Below are positions 3,260 to 22,082 of a stretch of DNA of 23,746 nucleotides, piece after piece. A program made the translations under genes and the position numbers. Source of the stretch: a virus; the IMG/VR virus record IMGVR_UViG_3300029448_000443, positions 1 through 23,746 of that record, one strand, 5' to 3'. Below the pieces are notes generated by a model. The model was not told where the DNA came from. It ran no database searches and saw only the letters and a list, made by a program, of their open reading frames with translations. Every line of letters begins with the position of its first letter. Position 1 is the stretch's first letter.

Positions 3260-3497
3260 AATTAAGAAACGTAGCTATGATAACCTACATGTCCTTTGGG
3301 CAAAGTTATCAGCAGTTAGAGTAGGTATAGTGGATAAGGAACAAGTTAAGCTAGGTAATCAGCGTGACTACCTAACATGGATACCTATCTGTATGGCAAA
3401 GCTACCTAACTTACTCAAACATGAGTACGATCTAGATAGGCTAGGGCAAGTGTATACTGTGAACACAAAGCAGTATAAGCATGCTATCTCTAAATGA
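3237..3497 (+). CDS. Unknown small protein before primase, 86 aa
   Basis: An 86-residue basic protein that starts at ATG 3237 inside the end of the previous gene, with AAGGA about 6 bases upstream. It is rich in Lys, Leu and Tyr, with no cysteine pair or nucleotide-binding motif; the centre, LGNQRDYLTWIPICMAKLPNL, is the most hydrophobic part. Its stop overlaps the primase start as ATGA, so the two are tightly coupled. Position suggests a replication accessory role. I do not recognise the family. Confidence 0.7.
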   Translation: MNEQVKTEIKKRSYDNLHVLWAKLSAVRVGIVDKEQVKLGNQRDYLTWIPICMAKLPNLLKHEYDLDRLGQVYTVNTKQYKHAISK

Positions 3498-4288
3498 ATG
3501 TGAAGTGGTTAAAAAGTTATGTTGAATCCCTTCCCATTCCTAGTTATGGGCGTTATCGGTCTGATTGCCCTGTATGTGGCAAGCCTAACACCTTTAGTGT
3601 AACAGATAGTGGCTTTGAGAGATTGTGGTATTGTTTCCATGCTGATTGCCACACTAAAGGTAGTACTGGCGTTAGCCTAACTAAAGATAATTCAAGTAAG
3701 GCTTTTGTCAAAAGAGAAACTAAACAAGAAGAGACAGACGTTGATTTTACAATACCTGATACGTTTGTCTCTTTGTCTCGTAATATCAATGCTGAGAACT
3801 ATGTCAAACAAGTACATTCTTATGATGCTTATTTGTCAGGCTTGGCTGATATTAGATATGACTTCCAACGTGATCGTGTTGTCTACCTAGTTAAGCAAGG
3901 AGATAAGGTAGTCGATGCAACTGGACGAAGTTTAACCAACACAAGACCTAAGTGGTTAAGATATGGTACAAGCAAGCTACCATTTACATGTGGCACAAGT
4001 GATAATCTTTTTATTGTAGAAGATTGCCCATCTGCATGTAGTGTATCTAATCTAGTAAGTGGCTTGGGCTTGATGGGAACATCATTGCTAGATAGCCACA
4101 TACAAGTAATCCAAAATTATAAAAAAATTTTTGTAGCATTAGACAGAGATGCAACTCGTAAAGCAGTTGACATTGTCAGGCATTTGTCTAATTATGTACC
4201 TACTAAATTAGTTGTACTAAAGAAAGACCTGAAAAATATGGAGAAAGAGGAACGTGATGACTTCATCAACAATTATATCAGTAGATAA
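3494..4288 (+). CDS. T7-type DNA primase, zinc finger plus TOPRIM
   Basis: A 264-residue protein equivalent to the primase half of T7 gp4, which makes short RNA primers on the lagging strand. The zinc-binding domain shows C25-x2-C28 and, 19 residues later, C47 and C52 in YCFHADC. The TOPRIM fold shows the metal-binding acids E176 (FIVEDCPSA) and D217/D219 (ALDRDA). It starts at ATG 3494 in a 4-base ATGA overlap with the preceding gene and has no strong site of its own, so it is probably coupled. In T7 this domain is fused to the helicase; here it stops and the helicase follows as a separate gene overlapping by 32 bases. The two proteins must therefore meet by binding. Confidence 0.88.
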   Translation: MNVKWLKSYVESLPIPSYGRYRSDCPVCGKPNTFSVTDSGFERLWYCFHADCHTKGSTGVSLTKDNSSKAFVKRETKQEETDVDFTIPDTFVSLSRNINAENYVKQVHSYDAYLSGLADIRYDFQRDRVVYLVKQGDKVVDATGRSLTNTRPKWLRYGTSKLPFTCGTSDNLFIVEDCPSACSVSNLVSGLGLMGTSLLDSHIQVIQNYKKIFVALDRDATRKAVDIVRHLSNYVPTKLVVLKKDLKNMEKEERDDFINNYISR

Positions 4289-5486
4289 GCAAGTATTAGG
4301 ATTTTGTTTAGATGTTGACTTCTTTGCAAAGGTAAAGAATAAAATAGATAGAGATATGTTTGATAGGGAACTAAAAGATATCTTTGACACAATTGTATAT
4401 TCCCACACAAAGTATGCTAAGACGTTAACCAAATCTGAGCTTGCAGGTATTTTCAATGATAGAAATCCTGCGATACCTGATTCAGCTAGGAACAGAGTAC
4501 AAGAGATTATATCTGAACTAGATGATACGCCAAGTGACAATGATGAACTGCACCTAGACTTGGTCAACAATCTTTGGCTAAGAGATAGAGCAAGACAGAT
4601 AGGAGAGAAAGCACTTGAGATATTTACTGGCGAGAACGAAGAGTTTGGTGAGCTACGTAGGCTTATCGATGCCGTTGAAGATGGTAGGATCAGCGACAAG
4701 ACTACCTACAATATTGTTGAGAGTGATCTAGCTCAACTACTTGAAGAGGAAGCAGGAGAGAACGATTTCCCTTTTCAATTCAACCTTATCCAAGAAAAAG
4801 TTAAAGGAATGGATAAGGGTAATTTAGGGATACTATTTGCTAGACCTGAAGTGGGTAAGACCACATTTTGTTGTTTCCTTGCATCATCTTACATCAAACA
4901 AAAATTCAAAGTTACCTATTGGGCAAACGAAGAACCTGCTCAACGAATCAAGCTACGTATCATTCAATCTTATTTTGAATTGACAAGAGAAGAAATGGTT
5001 ATGCAAAAAGACAAACTACTTGAACGCTACCATTTTGAGATTGAACCTTATCTAACTATCATGGACTCAGTTGGTACATCTGTAGAAGAGATGGACGACT
5101 ATGCCAAGCTGAATAAACCTGATGTCATGTTCTGTGATCAGCTAGATAAGTTCCGTGTTGGTGGTCAGTACAATCGTGGTGATGAAAGATTGAAAGAGAC
5201 TTATGTGACGGCAAGAGAAATTGCCAAGCGAAATCAATTACTTATATGGGCAGTCAGTCAGGCAAGCTACGATGCCCATGATCGTCAATTTATTGACTAC
5301 TCTATGTTAGACAATTCTAGAACTGGTAAAGCAGGGGAAGCTGATGTTATCATAGGAATTGGTAAGACAGGATCAAGCGAGGTAGATAATATTGTCAGAC
5401 ATATCTGTATATCCAAGAACAAGATCAATGGTTGGCATGGTATGATAAATGCTCAGATAGATGTACATAGAGGAGTATACTACTAA
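4257..5486 (+). CDS. Replicative DNA helicase, DnaB/T7 gp4 C-terminal type
   Basis: A 409-residue RecA-fold helicase that should unwind the phage fork as a ring. Walker A is ARPEVGKT (195-202); E225/E226 in WANEEP follow as the catalytic glutamate region; Walker B ends in MFCDQLDKF with D294; a later motif reads VSQASYDAHDR. Residues 1-110 resemble a DnaB N-terminal helical domain, whose normal role is primase contact, which would fit a primase encoded as a separate protein. ATG 4257 is preferred because GAGG lies 6 bases upstream; GTG 4254 is directly adjacent. It overlaps the primase gene by 32 bases, and its stop (TAATG) overlaps the next start. Confidence 0.9.
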   Translation: MTSSTIISVDKQVLGFCLDVDFFAKVKNKIDRDMFDRELKDIFDTIVYSHTKYAKTLTKSELAGIFNDRNPAIPDSARNRVQEIISELDDTPSDNDELHLDLVNNLWLRDRARQIGEKALEIFTGENEEFGELRRLIDAVEDGRISDKTTYNIVESDLAQLLEEEAGENDFPFQFNLIQEKVKGMDKGNLGILFARPEVGKTTFCCFLASSYIKQKFKVTYWANEEPAQRIKLRIIQSYFELTREEMVMQKDKLLERYHFEIEPYLTIMDSVGTSVEEMDDYAKLNKPDVMFCDQLDKFRVGGQYNRGDERLKETYVTAREIAKRNQLLIWAVSQASYDAHDRQFIDYSMLDNSRTGKAGEADVIIGIGKTGSSEVDNIVRHICISKNKINGWHGMINAQIDVHRGVYY

Positions 5487-5599
5487 TGGGTTTCTTTATT
5501 TGTTTGATAGGTATTTGGGGCTTACTTACACAAACTGGCGGTAATCCCTTTACTATAATCATGGCGTTAATGTTCTTAGTTTTACTAGGTACTCGATAA
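5486..5599 (+). CDS. Tiny hydrophobic membrane protein, 37 aa
   Basis: A 37-codon gene between helicase and HNH nuclease. Its ATG overlaps the helicase stop (TAATG), with AGGAG 10 bases upstream, and its own stop overlaps the next start in the same way (TAATG at 5597-5601). The protein has two hydrophobic stretches, residues 2-14 (GFFICLIGIWGLL) and 22-35, around a TGGNP turn, so it is either a hairpin or one long membrane segment. Perfect overlap with both neighbours argues strongly that it is translated. Small proteins like this may act as holin-like, superinfection-exclusion or membrane-anchor factors, but no choice is possible from sequence. Confidence 0.65.
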   Translation: MGFFICLIGIWGLLTQTGGNPFTIIMALMFLVLLGTR

Positions 5600-5883
5600 T
5601 GAGTAGACCTAAACTAAATGCTAGAGCAAAACGTAGGAGATACTGGTTGAATTACATAAAAATGAAATGTGGTTGTTCCTTCTGTGGATACAGAGATAAT
5701 CCTCTCGCTTTGCAATTCGATCACTTAGGTAATAAGACTAGGCAAGTTAGCCATATGGTTTTAAACAGTATAAAAAATTTAATAAAAGAAGTAAGAAAGT
5801 GCAGAGTCCTCTGTGCTAATTGCCATTCAATACATACAGATAGGAGAAGAAATGGTAGAACAACTAAACGTGTTGACACTTGA
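5599..5883 (+). CDS. Small HNH endonuclease
   Basis: A 94-residue basic protein with an HNH/zinc-finger nuclease core: paired cysteines CSFC (26-29), the metal-site DH at 41-42 (LQFDHLG), and C68 plus CANCHSIH (72-79), which gives a second CxxC, the Asn and the final His. N-terminal residues 1-25 are very basic (KRRRYW), suiting DNA contact. It is the size of a free-standing phage HNH nuclease and would nick or cut DNA. It starts by TAATG overlap with the small membrane gene, and its end covers the start of the exonuclease gene by 32 bases. Standing next to a DNA polymerase split into two frames, it could be a homing endonuclease; a role in host DNA breakdown is the alternative. Confidence 0.8.
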   Translation: MSRPKLNARAKRRRYWLNYIKMKCGCSFCGYRDNPLALQFDHLGNKTRQVSHMVLNSIKNLIKEVRKCRVLCANCHSIHTDRRRNGRTTKRVDT

Positions 5884-6448
5884 TGTCGAAACAACTCACA
5901 AAACAAAGGGATCTGGTGGCACTACTGCTTTGCCTTATTTTAACAATAGGCTTGTATCCATCGGTTATAAGTGGTTAGGACAAGATAAGGTAGATTACGA
6001 CTTCATCTACCATTCAGATCCAAGAGCATCTGTAGAAGATGATTGGTTCAAGAATATGCAAGCTACCTTAGATAAGACAGATGTGCTTGTCGGACAAAAC
6101 TTAAAGTTTGATCTGACTTGGGTTCGAGCATGTGGCTTTAAGTATGATGGTCACGTGTACGACACTATGGTAGCTGAGTATATCTTAGCTAAAGCAAAGA
6201 GGTGGTCACTTAGTCTTGACTCTCTTACAAAACGATATGGTGTTACACAAAAGGAAAAAGATTTGGTTGCACCTTATTTAAAAGATGGTAAAACATTTTA
6301 CGATATACCTTATGACATAGTTAAAGAGTATGGTATAGCAGACGTGATTGCTACAGAAGAAGTAGCAGTTAAACAACTTGAAGCCTTTGGCACAACATTT
6401 GGAGAATTATTTAATGACACTAGTACCGACACTAAAGCTTTCGCTTGA
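5852..6448 (+). CDS. 3'-5' proofreading exonuclease, family A polymerase N-terminal half
   Basis: A 198-residue DnaQ-fold exonuclease equal to the N-terminal domain of T7 DNA polymerase. ExoI is LDVETT with D11 and E13, ExoII is GQNLKFD with D87, ExoIII is YGIAD with Y160 and D164: all catalytic acids are present. ATG 5852 is chosen because AGGAG lies 5-6 bases upstream; earlier codons lie inside the HNH gene. It ends at 6448 with ELFND(T), exactly where family A polymerases continue into LVP..., which here is read in another frame from 6414. It is thus a separate protein, or the first half of a frameshift product. It presumably proofreads as a partner of the next gene's product. Confidence 0.88.
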   Translation: MVEQLNVLTLDVETTHKTKGSGGTTALPYFNNRLVSIGYKWLGQDKVDYDFIYHSDPRASVEDDWFKNMQATLDKTDVLVGQNLKFDLTWVRACGFKYDGHVYDTMVAEYILAKAKRWSLSLDSLTKRYGVTQKEKDLVAPYLKDGKTFYDIPYDIVKEYGIADVIATEEVAVKQLEAFGTTFGELFNDTSTDTKAFA

Positions 6449-7946
6449 AATGACAAACGTCCTCACTCGTATTGAGATGAATGGACTTAAGATAAACTTA
6501 GATACTTTAGATGAGATAGAGAAAGAATACAATGAGGAACTATCCTATCTAGAAAAGAAACTACAGACTATGGCAAAAGAAGCAATGGGCGATACACCTA
6601 TCAACCTATCTAGTCCTGATGATCGTAGTGTGTTGTTGTACTCTCGCAAAGTAAAAGATAAAACTCTGTGGTCAATTACATTTAATCTTGGGCATGAGAT
6701 GCGAGGTAACACAATCAAGCCTAAGTTACGTACACGTATGAAGAAGAATGATTTCATTCGTAATGTACGGAACATGACTGACATCGTGTACAAGACTGTG
6801 GGACAGATGTGTGCAGGTTGTTTAGGGCATGGTCGTGTCAGACCTGTCAATAAGAATGGTGAACCAAGTAAAGCATTACGGATATGCAAGCCATGCAAAG
6901 GTAAAGGTACTATCTACGAAAGCACTAATGAGGTAGCAGGCTTTAAGATTGTACCTCGTAATCCCAAAGATGTGGCATCTGCAGGATTCAAGACAGATAA
7001 GGTTACTCTTGAAGATAGGTCGACTGAACTAAGTGGGGAAGCACGTGAGTTCTGTGTAGCCTACTCAAGATATAATGCTATTCGTACCTACCTATCTACC
7101 TTTGTTGAGGGTATGAAGAACAATGTAGACGATGATAACTTTATTCATCCTGAGTTTATGCAATGTGTCACGGCTACTGGTAGACTATCTAGTCGTAATC
7201 CTAACTTTCAAAACATGCCACGTGGTTCTACCTTTGCCATACGTAAGGTAGTTGAGAGTCGATTCGATGGTGGCTACATACTTGAAGGGGATTACTCTCA
7301 GTTGGAGTTCAGAGTAGCAGGTTTTCTAGCTAAAGATCCACAAGCTTACGATGATGTTCTCAAGGGTACTGATGTTCATAGCTACACTGCATCGATAATA
7401 GGGTGTTCAAGGCAGGATGCAAAGGCACACACGTTCAAACCTCTCTATGGTGGAGTAAGTGGTACTCCTGCACAACAAGCCTACTACACGGCGTTTAAAG
7501 AGAAGTATGAGAAGGTTGCTGAGTGGCACAAAGAACTTGAAAAGGAAGCAGTCAAAACTAAAGAGATAAAATTACCGTCAGGTCGTACCTATGCTTTCCC
7601 TGATGCTAAGTGGACTGAGTGGGGTGCGGCCACAAACAGAACGGCTATCTGTAATTACCCAGTTCAAGGGTTTGCTACTGCTGACTTGCTACCTATTGCC
7701 TTAGTTCAGCTAGATAAGGTGATGAGAGAGTTGGATATGAAGTCAGTTATATGCAACACAGTCCATGATTCAATCGTACTTGATGTACATCCTGATGAAA
7801 AAGATTTGTGTGTTAAGGTACTTTCTGAAGCTATGTTGTCTATTTCTGATGGCTCGAAAGCTAGGTATGGCTTAGAATACGACATGCCAATAGGAATAGA
7901 ATTAAAAATAGGTAATAATTGGCTTGACCTAACTGAAATAAATTAG
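6414..7946 (+). CDS. Family A DNA polymerase domain with DnaJ-type zinc finger
   Basis: A 510-residue polymerase domain that copies the phage genome. Motif A is GDYSQLEFR (D293), motif B RQDAKAHTFKPLYGG (R333, K337, F341, Y345), motif C VHDSIV (D452). F341 aligns with Phe762 of E. coli Pol I and Tyr526 of T7. Before motif A, in the thumb region, C133-C136 and C158-C161 in CAGCLGHG...CKPCKGKG form a DnaJ central-domain zinc finger, the hallmark of HMO-2011-type phage polymerases (established knowledge). ATG 6414 has GGAG 9 bases upstream and overlaps the exonuclease gene by 35 bases in the +1 frame. ATG 6450 is a poorer start. It lacks its own exonuclease domain. Confidence 0.92.
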   Translation: MTLVPTLKLSLEMTNVLTRIEMNGLKINLDTLDEIEKEYNEELSYLEKKLQTMAKEAMGDTPINLSSPDDRSVLLYSRKVKDKTLWSITFNLGHEMRGNTIKPKLRTRMKKNDFIRNVRNMTDIVYKTVGQMCAGCLGHGRVRPVNKNGEPSKALRICKPCKGKGTIYESTNEVAGFKIVPRNPKDVASAGFKTDKVTLEDRSTELSGEAREFCVAYSRYNAIRTYLSTFVEGMKNNVDDDNFIHPEFMQCVTATGRLSSRNPNFQNMPRGSTFAIRKVVESRFDGGYILEGDYSQLEFRVAGFLAKDPQAYDDVLKGTDVHSYTASIIGCSRQDAKAHTFKPLYGGVSGTPAQQAYYTAFKEKYEKVAEWHKELEKEAVKTKEIKLPSGRTYAFPDAKWTEWGAATNRTAICNYPVQGFATADLLPIALVQLDKVMRELDMKSVICNTVHDSIVLDVHPDEKDLCVKVLSEAMLSISDGSKARYGLEYDMPIGIELKIGNNWLDLTEIN

Positions 7947-14100: not shown

Positions 14101-17100
14101 TTAGTTTATTTGAGTTTGTTGTGTAGGGTATACAACCCCGATTGATCTCCAATAAGTTTCCTCATTGTAGCCACTATCATGTGTTAGTCCATACACATTC
14201 TTTATAGCATTAGCAGAGAACTTCATTACTGCTCGTACAAAATAGTCAGCATCTGCTTCTATCACTCTTGTAGGATCGTTCATCAAATTCAGAATAGTAT
14301 TTGATACTCTCTCATCATTTAGAATTGTATTCAAGATAGCACCATCTGCTAGAGCGGCATATCTTATAGCCATCTCAGCCATAACATACTCTGTACTAAC
14401 CATACCTCTAGCTATGTTGAATGCCTTTGATAAGGTGTTATTCAGAGTGAATCCGGGGTTAGGACCTTTTGTGGTCGCACCACTTTCTTTTGCTCTAGCT
14501 AATACAGACTTAGCATCCATCTTTGTAGAGTGTCTGTACATGGCTACAAGCACTTCCTTTTGTTCAGAACTCATACCTGCAGCATCCATAAGAGCATTGA
14601 ACTTTTCTGATTGTATAGACAGAGCAGTTCTTGTACCATCTTCTGCGATTTCGTCGAATGCAGTTAATAGAGAGAACGGTATCTCAGGAGTTTGGTAAGA
14701 GCTTATTGGTATCTCTTCTCCATTGTAGAATTTAAACTTAGAACCGTTTTTACTTTCTCCTCCAGATGCTCTTAGTACGTCAACCACAAGACCTTGTAAT
14801 ATTTTTTGACTTTGCTCAAGGGTCATCTCCCCTGCATCAACTAGTCTGTCTAAGTCTTGTATGTACAAGTCTACAGAATTAGGATCACCTCTCATTATAA
14901 CATCACTAAAGAAAGAGTCACCTGACATGTTTTCTTTGTACAGCCTACTCTTTTGGTACACAGCACTTTGTTCTGTTTCCATTTGTTTTACGGCCGCACT
15001 CTTAGTTACTTGAGCTTCTTGGTCTACTATATCAAAGAATTTTTTATGAGTTTCTTTGAACTTCTTAGATGACATGATTGCACTAGTTATGCCTTCCTCT
15101 GCTTTTAGCATAGATCTAATATCAAATGCTGGTATACGTATATTTTCTATCTCACCAGTATCTTTGTTAAGTCTTCTAACATTGACTTTTATAAGCTCTT
15201 CCATAGCATCTATGTACTCTTCGTAGTTCTTAAATTGAGTAGGAAGAGGTATAGCTTTAGGTAGATTAAATCCTTCAGTGTCTTGAACTCTTATGTTACC
15301 TGTCTGCATCTTGTTAAGATCTATATTCTCTCCGTTCTTTATCTGATCAGCTACGTTGAACATACCTTTGTAGGATATGAACTTACTGTACATCAAAGAT
15401 TGAAGTGTCTCACTCAGAGCTAATAATCCTGTTCTACCATCCTCTTTAGTTATATCAAACACAGGAGATACCATGCTGTTTAGCTGTGAGGATGTAGGCT
15501 CTATTACTTTACCATCTTGTCCTTTCATTAGAACATTAGGTGGTAGTTGTTCTGAGGTAGAAGCAAAGGTAGCTATAAATCTTTTCATCTCATCTTTTAC
15601 AAACCCTGCTGTTCTGTCAGTAGGCTTTACAATTGCATCGATCATTGGATCAAATAGTTTATTTATAGTACTTTTAGTTATTGTTGTTTCCTGACCATCT
15701 ATTCCTAAAAACTTTATAGGACTACCCTTTGAAGCTTTTTCTATCTGATCACCTATAGTATTTTCATCAAACCTCTGCTTCTCAAGTCTTGCTATATTTC
15801 TAGCGTAGATAACATCATTGAAAGTTCCTGCATCCACTGAGTTACCCCAACCTCTAAAATCTTGATCAAGTAGTGCTACCATTCGCACACCTAATGAGCT
15901 TATGTTAGCATTTTGATTTTTAGAGAATACTTGAAAGGACTGACGTAGCTTTTCAAACTCTAAAGGTGAAGCTAAGAACCCAAAGTCATCTGCAGTAAAT
16001 GCTAAGTCTTGTTTTTGTACCATATACTGTAGTAGCTGAAAGTTACTCATTGTATCGTTTTCACCTAATCCAAACTGAGATCTTATTCCCGGATTAGCTT
16101 GAGCTTGATCTTTAAAGTATCTGTACAAATCTTTGCCTGATTCAAATGGTGTGTCATCTTTAGTCAAGGTAGAGTTCATTATATCTATGAAACCTTGATC
16201 GTTAAAAGTTTTCATAAGACCTCGTTTTGCTCCCCCTTCTATGTTATTCATCAACTGCCTACCTGCTGAATTACCAAGTAGAGGTGAGGTTCTAGGGTTG
16301 GATATAATTGATATGTCAACGCCATACCCTTTTGCAAACTCATCAAACATTTTAAATATGTTATCGCCAGTGTTTACAAAGTCTATAGTTTGAGATGGGT
16401 CTATTTTACCATATGCAGCTTCCACTTTAGCGTCTGATGCTGTTCTTATTACTTTTGTAACTTTTGATACGGCATCATTTGAGTTATTTACAGAATCAAT
16501 CTGTTTGTCTGTAAGAGTAAGTCTCTTGTTAGTCTCAACCACAGTATTCACAAGATCAGATGCTATTTTACTTACTGACTGCTTTTGCTGATATATTCCT
16601 TTATCTGGTGAAGGAGTAAGATTACTGTACTCAAATGTATCTTGCTCTTTTCTCGTTAAATATGACTCAGCTTTATTTCTTAACTTAAATAAACTAGCCA
16701 ATCCATTGTCTACAGCATCTCCTTCAGTCCACATGGATAGAAGAGCTTCGTTTTGTGGGTTCTTTAATTCTTCTAAGAAATTGTCAATTTCAATTATCTC
16801 TTGTTCTAATGACTTTTTAAATATGAGTTGTTGATTTACGGCCGCAGATTCGTACATACCTGCAGTCATTTTCAATCTTTGTATAACTTCAGGTGCAACA
16901 CCTTCTGCTGATTCTAACTTGAGTATATCTGCTTTCAAACTTTCAACTAATGCAGAAAAGTTGTTTACTCTTTCTTCTCCAAAGTCCTGAACATCCATAG
17001 CTCTTCGAACACTATTGTTAAACTTAAGAAGATCTTTTTTCTTAAATCCTAACTCATCCATCTTAAGATATTGAGACACGCCATGAAAAACACCAATACC

Positions 17101-19191
17101 TGATGAATCAGCCAAACTTAAAACTAACTTATTCTGTATGCCTTTTCTGAATTGCTCTGGTATATCTTTAGTCATAAGATGTATGTCTTGAACAGATTCC
17201 ATTAGATTTTTTATAATCATGTCGGATTGTATCTTAGGAAGATTCAAAGCATTCTTTGTAAATTCATCTATAGTTCTAATACCAGATATGCTTAAGCCTA
17301 ATGTATCCTTGAGATCATTTAAATTTCTTAAGTCAGGGTTGACGAGCATACCTTTTCCGTATCCTGCCAACATTATATTAGCTACATTCTCAATACCAAT
17401 CTTAGCTTGGAAAACTCTGTTTTGTATAAAATCTTCTACGACGGGTAGCTTAACACCTGATTGATAGTTGTAGAATTTCTTAACGCCACCAAACAACAGA
17501 TATCCTGCTACGGCCGCACCCTCTCCAAAAGCACCCATCTGTGGGTTTTCTTCACTTGCAAACATGTTTCGACCAGCACCTTGAATCATACCTATTGTCA
17601 AGTCTTGTCTAGGGTTCAAACCTACAAGTATAGCATTTGCACCTGCTACCTTGTACATCTCGTAGTTTCTTCTGTTTTTCAGAAGAGATATTTCATTGGT
17701 TAATCTGTTCGCATTTTCAACATTACCAGTTGTACGTGCATTTATAAGATCTCTACTTTTAGTGTCTATTTGATCTTGTAGGTTTCTTACTCCTGCCTTC
17801 ACATTCTCGTAGTTAAATCTTTTGTCAACAATGTTAGCAAGTCTATTAGCAGAAAATCTTGCTAGTCTACCTTCATTGGTATTAAGCATCATTATTTCTT
17901 TTGCCGCATCTTTCACGCTAACGTTGTGTGTGAGTGCATAGGACTTAGATCTCGCTACTTGATTGTTAATTGTGTCTATCTTGAATGGTACGTTAGTACC
18001 TGCACCATATTTTCTATTATGTAAAAGTCTTTGTGTACCATTTATTGCGTCTTTTACTCTTCTTGCTATAACGACAGGTGCAGTTACCCCTTTGAATGCT
18101 ACTGCACCCTCTGCTAAAAACATTGCTACCTGCTCGAAGAACCCTAACTTATCAAAGGCGTACTCGAACACATTACTTGCAAATTGGGGAGTCACAAAGT
18201 TCTTTTCAAAGACTTCTATACCATCAACATTTATCTTTTTGTTGTACCCTTTTGCTTCAAACTCTTCAGGAGACATAGAATTACGTAACTCATCACGTAT
18301 TATATCATTTAATATTCTGTGCCTGTCAGTGTCAGGTAAAAGTTCAGAAAGCTTACCACTTCTTCTGAATTCAAATAACTCTTTTTCTATAGTAGGTGAA
18401 AGCCATGTATCTCTCTCTGGATCTCCTATACCTGTGAGTCCTTGTAGCTTTTGAAAAGCTCCATCTGCAAGTTGAGGTAGGTAGAACATTAGACCTTCAT
18501 TCAAAAAGCCGACAGTCTCATATGTCCTTCTAGCAAGGTTACCACCAAAGGTAGGACTAACTCGTCTTGCTATAATCTTTTGTACTTGTTTGTCCATAGG
18601 TGCATCAGGCTGGGTTTGAAACCACTGCATGAACTCACCTTCTTGCTTGACTTTCTTGTCAAGGATAGTTTTATTTGTAGGAAAAACACTTTTCATAAAA
18701 GCATTTTGATCATCACTAGCAGGCATAGTATCACCGTACTCTACTTCTCCCGTAGCGATGTTTATTGGGAAAGAACCTGTCTCTATTATTCCAGTAGAAA
18801 GCCTATCGCTTGTAGGTACAGATCTAGTATATCTGTTCTTGAATAAGTTTATCTTTGCATCTAAGTCTTGTCTGTTAACTAAAGTTTGATTAGCTGTGGT
18901 AGCGAGATTTATAGCTTTGTTAGCTTGTATAGCATCGTTGACTATCTGTGTATCTATTTTATTAGGACCATCAAAGAAAGAATTAACATCAATCTCTTCA
19001 TTCAAAGCTTTTTGGAAAACATTGTCTTGAACTTGTCTAGGATTGAGTTCAACATCGGGAGCTTCTTCTCTCTGGAACTCATATACATCTCTTTTAGGAG
19101 CATCAGTATCTTCTCCCGGATATACATCTCTGACTAAATCACTTTTTAAAACTTCAGGACCTGAACCTAAATAATCTGCTACTGTTGCCAT
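14101..19191 (-). CDS. Giant internal virion protein, probable DNA ejection protein (T7 gp16-like position)
   Basis: A 1696-residue protein, the largest in the window. It is largely helical and polar with few cysteines, and has two glycine/alanine-rich hydrophobic stretches, around GAVAFKGVTAPVVIA (about residue 363) and GEGAAVAGYLLFGGV (about residue 560). These could insert in a membrane. Charged heptad-like tracts also occur, for example near DLQDQI. I see no lytic transglycosylase or lysozyme motif, unlike T7 gp16. Size, order (last of a 14-15-16-like series) and coupling to the 963 aa gene (TAATG at 19189-19193) support an internal core or ejection role. This is inference from position and size, not from sequence similarity that I can see. 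Confidence 0.75.
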   Translation of the reverse strand: MATVADYLGSGPEVLKSDLVRDVYPGEDTDAPKRDVYEFQREEAPDVELNPRQVQDNVFQKALNEEIDVNSFFDGPNKIDTQIVNDAIQANKAINLATTANQTLVNRQDLDAKINLFKNRYTRSVPTSDRLSTGIIETGSFPINIATGEVEYGDTMPASDDQNAFMKSVFPTNKTILDKKVKQEGEFMQWFQTQPDAPMDKQVQKIIARRVSPTFGGNLARRTYETVGFLNEGLMFYLPQLADGAFQKLQGLTGIGDPERDTWLSPTIEKELFEFRRSGKLSELLPDTDRHRILNDIIRDELRNSMSPEEFEAKGYNKKINVDGIEVFEKNFVTPQFASNVFEYAFDKLGFFEQVAMFLAEGAVAFKGVTAPVVIARRVKDAINGTQRLLHNRKYGAGTNVPFKIDTINNQVARSKSYALTHNVSVKDAAKEIMMLNTNEGRLARFSANRLANIVDKRFNYENVKAGVRNLQDQIDTKSRDLINARTTGNVENANRLTNEISLLKNRRNYEMYKVAGANAILVGLNPRQDLTIGMIQGAGRNMFASEENPQMGAFGEGAAVAGYLLFGGVKKFYNYQSGVKLPVVEDFIQNRVFQAKIGIENVANIMLAGYGKGMLVNPDLRNLNDLKDTLGLSISGIRTIDEFTKNALNLPKIQSDMIIKNLMESVQDIHLMTKDIPEQFRKGIQNKLVLSLADSSGIGVFHGVSQYLKMDELGFKKKDLLKFNNSVRRAMDVQDFGEERVNNFSALVESLKADILKLESAEGVAPEVIQRLKMTAGMYESAAVNQQLIFKKSLEQEIIEIDNFLEELKNPQNEALLSMWTEGDAVDNGLASLFKLRNKAESYLTRKEQDTFEYSNLTPSPDKGIYQQKQSVSKIASDLVNTVVETNKRLTLTDKQIDSVNNSNDAVSKVTKVIRTASDAKVEAAYGKIDPSQTIDFVNTGDNIFKMFDEFAKGYGVDISIISNPRTSPLLGNSAGRQLMNNIEGGAKRGLMKTFNDQGFIDIMNSTLTKDDTPFESGKDLYRYFKDQAQANPGIRSQFGLGENDTMSNFQLLQYMVQKQDLAFTADDFGFLASPLEFEKLRQSFQVFSKNQNANISSLGVRMVALLDQDFRGWGNSVDAGTFNDVIYARNIARLEKQRFDENTIGDQIEKASKGSPIKFLGIDGQETTITKSTINKLFDPMIDAIVKPTDRTAGFVKDEMKRFIATFASTSEQLPPNVLMKGQDGKVIEPTSSQLNSMVSPVFDITKEDGRTGLLALSETLQSLMYSKFISYKGMFNVADQIKNGENIDLNKMQTGNIRVQDTEGFNLPKAIPLPTQFKNYEEYIDAMEELIKVNVRRLNKDTGEIENIRIPAFDIRSMLKAEEGITSAIMSSKKFKETHKKFFDIVDQEAQVTKSAAVKQMETEQSAVYQKSRLYKENMSGDSFFSDVIMRGDPNSVDLYIQDLDRLVDAGEMTLEQSQKILQGLVVDVLRASGGESKNGSKFKFYNGEEIPISSYQTPEIPFSLLTAFDEIAEDGTRTALSIQSEKFNALMDAAGMSSEQKEVLVAMYRHSTKMDAKSVLARAKESGATTKGPNPGFTLNNTLSKAFNIARGMVSTEYVMAEMAIRYAALADGAILNTILNDERVSNTILNLMNDPTRVIEADADYFVRAVMKFSANAIKNVYGLTHDSGYNEETYWRSIGVVYPTQQTQIN

Positions 19192-22082
19192 TATGGTCTA
19201 AAACCTCTCTGTGCTAGTTCATTTGATGATAACATTTTTCCATATCTATCCACATAGACAGGTAGCCCTACAGCTATTGGATCTCGTCTGTTTGTGGCTC
19301 GTACAACTTCATACACTTGTAATTCTGCATCTTCTGGATCGTGGGATTGAACTGGCTGTAATGCGTAGACACTTCTATCATATTTGTTGCCGTCCATCTC
19401 ATATCTATTTTTATATTGTCTAGCAGAATTTATAGAACTAACCATTTGTCGTACTTGCTTAAATACAGGAACAGCCCTCATAGCACGTATGTTTTTCTTT
19501 AAGATGATATTGCTACCATCTTCTTTTATGTTTGTAAATACTTCAAGTAAATTGTTGTTTATAATTAACTGTGATTCAGCATCGTTTTTGAAGCCTACTA
19601 ATAGTGCCTTTGTAATTTGATTACTTGCAAAGAAAGAAGATGTGATACTATCTAGAGCAGCTTTGAAGTCTCTGTCTGATATTCTACCATTCGGATCAAG
19701 TGTTCTCGCTCTTTGGTAGGCTATTGTTATTAGTTGAGAAGCTAGTTTTGCACTACCTAGACGTCTATCTGCTAATTTTTTTGTTAGTCCACCTAGTTCT
19801 CTATTCATACTGGCGACTACTCTGTCTGCTTGACCTATTTCAAACACGTCCATACCAAACTCTTCAACTAAGTATGAACCAGTAGATTTTAAAAGACCTG
19901 AGTTAGATCTTACTATATCAGTCACAAGATTATCAAGAGCTACGGCCGCATTGTTTCTATCACCTTGTACCCCTATATTATTGATAGCTGAATTCAATGT
20001 CGTTAAATAATCATTAAGGTTTACATTTTGCTTTGCTATGTCCTCAACTTTCAACTCACCCTTACTTAATTTTGTTATGGCAGCTTCTATTTGCTCTGTA
20101 GCATAGCCTACCTTTCCGGGATCTTTTTTGATTGAGAAGTCATCGTTCATAAGCATTGATACTACTTGAAATACGTCAGCATCATCGTCGATGTCTTGAT
20201 TAACAATAGTACGACCAATAGCAGCAAAGTCTTTTGTTCTTAAGTTTGTAAAGTTTGAAATCTTAGGAACTTGTTTAAGTATAGACGTACCAGCCTTGAA
20301 TAACTTATTGTTACCTTCTAAGACTGTACCACTTGTACTTATTCTAAATCCCCCTGCACCTTCTAACGCTTGAAAGTAACCGTCATCCTTCAACATGTCT
20401 GCAGGTTTAGTAAAGCCCTTTTGTTTAGCAAACTCTAATACTTCAGGCTGAAGAGCAACAACATCACTCTTGTTTGCTAGTAGCACTTGATTAGGACGCA
20501 AAGGAGTACCTGTAACATTCCCATCAACAGTCTGAGTAGATGCAACATTCCTAGTCACACTCACGTCTTCAGGTGGTTGGTTGATAACAGGTCCGTGTAT
20601 AAATGCTTTTATTTCAGGTATGGCATATAAGTTAGGAAACTTAAGTGCGTAATTATCAGGTCTATCTTGATATCTCTGTTCACCAGCAGTTACTGTCACC
20701 TTTGTTGTCATGTTATCATGGTTTTCCATCGTGGATGTTATGTCAGATATAAAGGAAGCTTTTTCTTGTGCAGGCAAACTATTCAAAAATCCTTGTATAT
20801 CTACGTTTTGACCATCAAGGGGTACGACTAATCCGTTCATCCTGCTTAAAAAAGTATTTGCTGTCTCTTTGTTTTTAGCCATATCAACTACTGTATTAGG
20901 AAACAAATCTACACCACCATATGATATTCCAGATTTACCTTTTCCTTCTGCAACTTTGTTTGCAGCATCCGCCATACCTTTTAATGCAAAATAATCTTGA
21001 GCTATCTGTTGCTCTTCTTCGTTTTCTGAATTTAAATACTGAGTAAACAAATTATTTTTTACCATATCTTTGATTTTTGTACTATTCAATACGGACTTTG
21101 AAAACATTGCTCGACTCTCTTGGTCTTTGATGTCCTCTCTGACTACGTCTACAGAATTACTTAAAAGATCGGCTACAGATACGTTTGTATTTTCTTTTTT
21201 ACCATATGAAAGTTTAAAGGACTCAAGAAAAAATCTTGATTTAGTATCTTTGGGATCTAGTCTTTTTATCATGTCATTAGCAACAATGATACCTGATCCG
21301 GGGTTGTTTTTCTCGGCAGTAGCTATCGCATCTTTCATAGTGTTTATGTTTGTGTCAGATAAACCCTTAAATTCACCCTCATCGTCTTCTTCTGCTTTTG
21401 CATTTAACGCCCAGAATAAAGAATTCTGTGTGGGATTGTTGTCCCTGTACTCTACCAAATCACCTGTTAGCTCTTCTCCTGTATCAACATTAACAGGTCT
21501 ACCACCATCTATCTTTACTTTTACAGGACCTTTGAATACTTCCCCAGTTGTCTTTATTGGAAAGTAATTATCTCTAAGAGCCTTTGCCATTGAAGCATCC
21601 GTAGCCTTAGAAAATATTCTGTTTTCACCCTCACTTAAGTTAACCATAGCAGCAGAAGATTTCAAAACTCTATGAAGATTTGGATTTTGTTCTACGTAGG
21701 CTCTGTTGTTTGCTAAGAAATTTTGTGCAAAAGTTGAACTCTTAGATGCTTCTCCTATAATTTTTTGGTCGTAAGGCGATACGTCTACCTGACCTAAAGA
21801 CTTCAAGGCTATGGCATTGTATAAATCAAAATTTGTCTTAGCTAGTTGTTGAAGTCTAGGTTTAAAGAAAGGATTAGATATAACTTTTTGAGCCATGTCT
21901 GTGCTACTAGTTGCTACTTCGAAGAAACTCTGCTGATTTTTCTCTACAGTCTCTGCTTTTTTCTTTTCCTTTGCTATGGCTTCTTTTTTCTGTGCAGTTC
22001 TACCTGCCACAAAGGATTCCATTGCTCCATTTAATACGCCGAATGCAACAGGACTATTTGCTATCTTATCAAAAATACCCAT
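19191..22082 (-). CDS. Large internal virion protein (T7 gp15-like position)
   Basis: A 963-residue, mostly helical and hydrophilic protein starting at ATG 22082 with AAAGG 8 bases upstream. The N-terminus (MGIFDKIANSPVAFGVLNGAMES, residues 1-23) is short and hydrophobic, followed by a lysine-glutamate helix about residues 31-50 (KKEAIAKEKKKAETVEKNQ). No enzymatic motif is seen. By size and order it corresponds to the inner core protein gp15 of T7 (747 aa). It is joined to the next gene by a 1-base TAATG overlap, so the two large proteins are made together and probably assemble together. Virion role is inferred from context. Confidence 0.72.
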   Translation of the reverse strand: MGIFDKIANSPVAFGVLNGAMESFVAGRTAQKKEAIAKEKKKAETVEKNQQSFFEVATSSTDMAQKVISNPFFKPRLQQLAKTNFDLYNAIALKSLGQVDVSPYDQKIIGEASKSSTFAQNFLANNRAYVEQNPNLHRVLKSSAAMVNLSEGENRIFSKATDASMAKALRDNYFPIKTTGEVFKGPVKVKIDGGRPVNVDTGEELTGDLVEYRDNNPTQNSLFWALNAKAEEDDEGEFKGLSDTNINTMKDAIATAEKNNPGSGIIVANDMIKRLDPKDTKSRFFLESFKLSYGKKENTNVSVADLLSNSVDVVREDIKDQESRAMFSKSVLNSTKIKDMVKNNLFTQYLNSENEEEQQIAQDYFALKGMADAANKVAEGKGKSGISYGGVDLFPNTVVDMAKNKETANTFLSRMNGLVVPLDGQNVDIQGFLNSLPAQEKASFISDITSTMENHDNMTTKVTVTAGEQRYQDRPDNYALKFPNLYAIPEIKAFIHGPVINQPPEDVSVTRNVASTQTVDGNVTGTPLRPNQVLLANKSDVVALQPEVLEFAKQKGFTKPADMLKDDGYFQALEGAGGFRISTSGTVLEGNNKLFKAGTSILKQVPKISNFTNLRTKDFAAIGRTIVNQDIDDDADVFQVVSMLMNDDFSIKKDPGKVGYATEQIEAAITKLSKGELKVEDIAKQNVNLNDYLTTLNSAINNIGVQGDRNNAAVALDNLVTDIVRSNSGLLKSTGSYLVEEFGMDVFEIGQADRVVASMNRELGGLTKKLADRRLGSAKLASQLITIAYQRARTLDPNGRISDRDFKAALDSITSSFFASNQITKALLVGFKNDAESQLIINNNLLEVFTNIKEDGSNIILKKNIRAMRAVPVFKQVRQMVSSINSARQYKNRYEMDGNKYDRSVYALQPVQSHDPEDAELQVYEVVRATNRRDPIAVGLPVYVDRYGKMLSSNELAQRGFRP

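Follow-up and report, generated by a model that had tools for sequence, protein, structure and literature searches.

A clade-wide split of the HMO-2011-type DNA polymerase at the exonuclease/polymerase seam in uncultured marine phages

The exonuclease and polymerase genes and the position of the cut

The window, i.e., the whole analyzed stretch of 23,746 nucleotides from the IMG/VR virus record IMGVR_UViG_3300029448_000443, carries the two domains of a family-A DNA polymerase in two overlapping genes, downstream of other replication genes. The features of this locus are as follows.

3494-4288: primase-like gene, upstream of the exonuclease/polymerase pair
4254-5486: DnaB-like helicase gene, upstream of the pair
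5599-5883, plus strand: small HNH endonuclease ORF (phrog_2255 HNH endonuclease, E 4e-22), overlapping the exonuclease start
5852-6448, plus strand: 3'-5' exonuclease half, 198 aa, ATG at 5852 and TGA at 6446-6448 (PF01612, E 1.6e-10)
6401-6416, plus strand: Shine-Dalgarno (SD) GGAG (6401-6404) and ATG (6414-6416) of the polymerase gene, inside the end of the exonuclease gene
6414-6448, plus strand: overlap of the exonuclease and polymerase frames, 35 nt, in different frames
6414-7946, plus strand: polymerase half, 510 aa; it carries motifs A, B and C together with a zinc insert resembling DnaJ (PF00476, E 7.4e-51)

An earlier sequence-only reading had placed the exonuclease end at 6448 and the polymerase ATG at 6414 in different frames, and this is borne out, the polymerase frame lying one forward (+1) relative to the exonuclease frame. 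The GGAG is 9 nt upstream of the polymerase ATG. A program-made ORF list gives earlier starts, GTG 5813 for the exonuclease and TTG 6378 for the polymerase; both homology and the position of the SD speak for 5852 and 6414 as the true starts. The exonuclease half contains Exo I (D11/E13), Exo II (N83/D87) and Exo III (Y160/D164), and the zinc insert of the polymerase half contains CAGCLGHG and CKPCKGKG, with a sub-threshold match to the Pfam DnaJ zinc domain (17.9 vs 32.7 bits). Elsewhere in the window, positions 14101-22082 of the minus strand hold a pair of very long ORFs, of 1696 aa and 963 aa, neither with a PHROG match.

A phmmer comparison places the seam between the two genes at the Klenow exonuclease/polymerase boundary. 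Because the seam falls in the linker at this boundary, the cut separates complete domains. This agrees with a model (mean pLDDT 88) of a hypothetical joined chain, in which the halves were linked via the four-letter code word TTAT=L. The seam is predicted to lie in a short lower-confidence linker (block 181-190, pLDDT 61) between helices 154-180 and 187-210. Almost the entire modeled chain can be matched to Klenow 1kfd (Z 30.9; 507 residues at 3.2 A) and to Bacillus Pol I fragments, the latter with Z up to 31.5. The 510-aa protein folded without an alignment reached a pLDDT of 35, too low to be informative. It should be noted that the model joins the halves artificially and, thus, says nothing on their binding.

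Introns or inteins are frequent in phage polymerase genes and, with a small HNH gene just upstream, a split intein or a group I intron could be thought to rejoin the halves into one chain. However, the 35-nt overlap of the genes in the window leaves no intervening sequence, the few residues beyond the exonuclease domain leave too little room for an intein, and a comparison with Rfam gave no match to an intron or any other RNA family, either for the window or for the split loci L276, L278, L279 and L281. The HNH gene itself sits between the helicase and exonuclease genes, away from the junction, and in many split loci no relative of it was detected. An intron or intein at the break is rejected on these grounds, and rejoining of the halves by such an element has a negligible probability.

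In our sample, relatives of the HNH ORF occur upstream of the exonuclease gene in many loci of the split clade, and in split-clade loci only. The 132 fused loci, of which 105 include 800 nt or more of upstream sequence, contain none, and none was detected in the L018-like and L273-289 split lineages. The ORF is associated with the split; a role in causing it is unsupported, given the position of the gene upstream of the exonuclease and its absence from several split lineages.

Distribution and origin of the split

Using tblastn against 50,697 phage records, we found that the closest annotated polymerase is that of Pelagibacter phage HTVC033P (49.5% identity), followed by those of CRP-3, CRP-212, HMO-2011 and other HMO-2011-type isolates. 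That known relatives encode one protein, as the sequence-only reading had stated, holds for this type: in each of the 11 isolates examined, the polymerase is encoded by one gene, 678-716 aa in length. Scans of IMG/VR were seeded with the exonuclease and polymerase of the window and with HTVC033P, L112 (a divergent split member) and CRP-3. Together with the isolates they gave 325 sequences with both halves, a count in which some contigs occur twice and which also takes in the window and its copy L001. Of these, 181 are split with the +1 relation, 5 are split in the other frame relation and 132 are fused; 5 run off the contig end, and the remaining 2, the Zobellviridae phages ICP2 and MEP402, are cut elsewhere.

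Among the IMG/VR relatives, all that are close enough, down to polymerase identities of about 55%, carry the split, at 90 distinct junctions, and no fused locus was found among the close relatives of the window in these scans. All other sampled relatives, outside the split clade, are fused at the exonuclease/polymerase seam. The relatives that the sequence-only reading had proposed to search are, thus, split when close and fused when distant. This comparison confirms that the split is real and beyond chance, and it is a feature of a whole clade of uncultured marine phages, beyond the phage of the window alone.

In the window contig alone, a one-base sequencing or assembly error would look the same, and a decaying gene might be suspected. 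Against both stand the recurrence of the same split across many metagenome assemblies, at 90 distinct junctions, and the state of the two halves, which are intact and, as judged from dN/dS, under purifying selection: in the split clade, dN/dS has a median of 0.13 for the exonuclease and 0.073 for the polymerase, compared to 0.11 and 0.096, respectively, in fused relatives. Sequencing error and a pseudogene are both rejected by the clade-wide conservation combined with dN/dS, which leaves this explanation with almost no probability. One member of the split clade, L105 (127-714), has an exonuclease frame that stops early, at 390, next to an intact polymerase, through decay or sequencing error.

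All motifs in both halves had been described as intact, and the clade bears this out. Exonuclease residues D11, E13, N83, D87, Y160 and D164 are invariant wherever aligned (167 split and 128 fused sequences), as are polymerase residues D293, E298, R300, R333, K337, Y345, H451 and D452 in the split sequences. In 177 split sequences, the four zinc cysteines show no variation, nor do the residues of motifs A, B and C, apart from S295.

In a maximum likelihood tree of 54 representative polymerases, which has long branches in its deep part, the split sequences form one clade on one side of a branch (100/99), requiring one change; a single change also suffices in 100% of the sampled bootstrap trees. 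In the exonuclease tree, built on 184 columns, 18 of 20 split rows group together (100/96). L281/L282, the split pair that diverges most, is placed outside this group, and a single clade is not rejected (p-AU 0.208). In ICP2 and MEP402 the exonuclease stays joined to the N-terminal part of the polymerase across this seam, so the fused state is most likely ancestral. As far as these comparisons reach, the data are best explained by an old, maintained split that arose once.

Separate initiation of the polymerase

The polymerase gene has a start codon in all 90 distinct split junctions (87 ATG, 2 TTG and 1 GTG) and, 5-11 nt upstream of it, an SD-like 4-mer, again in 90 of 90; thus, the GGAG/ATG that the sequence-only reading had ascribed to the downstream half of one phage recurs throughout. 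This SD is encoded within exonuclease codons, and codon choice there is restricted. Glu at the SD position is GAG in 77 of 77 cases, compared to 684 of 1673 (41%) elsewhere in the exonuclease (Fisher p 1e-29); the counts take in related sequences, and the p-value overstates independence, so they are to be read as a pattern, not as an exact probability. Similarly, Lys at this position is AAG in 9 of 9 cases, and Gly is GGA or GGG in 30 of 30. Among 63 conserved two-fold-degenerate columns of the exonuclease (median codon uniformity 0.72), only four, at residues 179, 184, 188 and 193, have 100% uniformity, and all four fall in the polymerase initiation region. The two genes mostly overlap, and their arrangement ranges across the split relatives from a 68-nt overlap to a 1097-nt gap; what is conserved at the junction is a start codon with an SD at a distance of 5-11 nt.

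The strong synonymous constraint at the junction would also be expected of a recoding site, and the +1 relation is kept in most split loci. Both facts are consistent with programmed +1 ribosomal frameshifting in the overlap, which would yield an exonuclease-polymerase fusion, alone or beside the separate halves. Conversely, it is the SD and the start codon that stay conserved, whereas the exonuclease stop shifts its position relative to the polymerase start and its context varies (GCT TGA, ATT TGA, GCT TAA, ATC TAG, ACT TAA and others), and the overlap is just 8 nt in L281-289. In L274 and L276-279, the polymerase gene, with its own purine-rich SD and ATG, begins approximately 0.6-1.1 kb after the exonuclease end, and small ORFs lie between (an HTH-like protein, a Cys-rich protein and others); L273 has a similar gap of 658 nt. 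Because of this distance, a +1 frameshift fusion is impossible in L274 and L276-279, as in L273, and the gene arrangement makes it certain that two proteins are produced in this sublineage. With the genes separated here and the overlap and stop context variable elsewhere, there is no slippery site conserved in an overlap of all members. Programmed frameshifting is, thus, rejected for the separated lineage and disfavored elsewhere; it is a quite improbable account of the split as a whole, and the overlapping lineages might still produce a minor frameshift product.

In L274, L276-279 and L273, the SD in the exonuclease end now precedes the start of the small HTH-like gene. Among fused HTVC033P-like loci, including L144, an in-frame SD-like site with an ATG is found at the position of the split polymerase start in 29 of 71 distinct junctions, where it is a possible internal start. 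Conserved internal initiation in these fused relatives is rejected since the other 42 junctions have no SD-like site with an ATG.

Probable joint function of the two proteins and known split polymerases

Representing the history of the locus as "fused-split-reassembled", we propose the following steps. The ancestor would have been a single-chain family-A DNA polymerase of the HMO-2011 type. A single split in the ancestor of the clade, in the linker between the exonuclease and polymerase domains, would have been followed by production of two proteins ever since. Translational coupling of the overlapping genes would cause both proteins to be made together, and their non-covalent binding would rebuild a Klenow-like proofreading polymerase, presumably the only replicative polymerase of the phage. 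We assign this reading a probability of approximately 85%. The suggestion of a working two-protein polymerase rather than decay is supported by the single origin, purifying selection, invariant catalytic residues and the conserved SD and start codon; the joint working of the two proteins is what we infer from them. Assembly of the products into one polymerase is most likely, by analogy with gp43A/gp43B of phage 25.

Gene content points in the same direction, in that ten split genomes of 43-56 kb have exactly one PolA match each, and no PolB was found in these ten. As in HMO-2011-type phages, HMO-2011-like TerL (53-58% identity) and coat protein (41-56%) are present in 10 of 10 large split-clade genomes, to which this result refers, the window record itself being partial.

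Alternatively, the exonuclease might now be independent, proofreading in trans or serving another DNA-processing role, while the 510-aa polymerase stands alone, without a stable complex. The polymerase domain of Klenow remains active when the exonuclease domain is missing, and adjacency of the two genes is lost in L273-279. However, the gene order is kept in every split locus, with the genes adjacent or nearly so, and the exonuclease has the same catalytic residues and the same purifying selection as in fused enzymes. We consider independent action of the two proteins unlikely.

Split phage polymerases are already known. The gp43A and gp43B proteins of the T4-like phage 25 co-purify, with polymerase activity (PMC2988022). 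The window shares with these proteins of Aeromonas phages 25 and 44RR a replicative polymerase encoded in two ORFs with all motifs intact; in contrast, theirs is a family B enzyme, associated with a homing endonuclease or with an insertion of untranslated sequence instead of overlapping genes. PolA is encoded in two ORFs in MEP401 and MEP402 as well, and most MEP401-type genomes have split polymerases (PMC10580990). Unlike in the window, the cut in the Zobellviridae phages MEP402 and ICP2 falls within the polymerase domain; a small ORF separates the parts in MEP402, and an in-frame stop does so in ICP2. In Vibrio phage ICP2_2013_A_Haiti (L145, 1372-3465), PolA is annotated as two same-frame ORFs with a stop and a few bases between them. 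Phage exonucleases annotated as a separate polymerase subunit form phrog_403 and phrog_192 ("DNA polymerase exonuclease subunit"); P0001 matches both (7.6e-13 and 1.7e-5), its best match being the whole-polymerase family phrog_17 (1.4e-26). A literature search, with subscription papers and preprints mostly outside its reach, returned no report of the exonuclease/polymerase seam as a fixed clade-wide feature.

Also among the closest known systems is the HMO-2011 type (HMO-2011, HTVC033P, CRP-1/2/3 and others). Like the window, it has a family-A enzyme in which a partial DnaJ zinc domain and two CXXCXGXG motifs occur; the polymerases are 37-50% identical, and the order of the replication genes is similar. 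In a survey of this type, all members have one continuous DNAP of 540-779 aa with exonuclease, DnaJ and polymerase domains (Qin et al. 2022, PMC9038755). The window, with 198 aa + 510 aa, departs from this property, which is descriptive and not a formal criterion. The survey kept DNAP matches of at least 80% alignment length and took proteins of >540 aa into the DNAP tree (PMC9038755); because of these length and coverage filters, 510-aa split polymerases would probably have been excluded. This is a warning that surveys with such filters on DNAP may miss split polymerases. Family-A replicases such as T7 gp5 and Klenow are single chains, whose exonuclease and polymerase domains have the primer end in common. 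A phage clade that keeps the exonuclease and polymerase separate, with no second PolA and no PolB found, is a natural experiment on whether proofreading needs covalent linkage.
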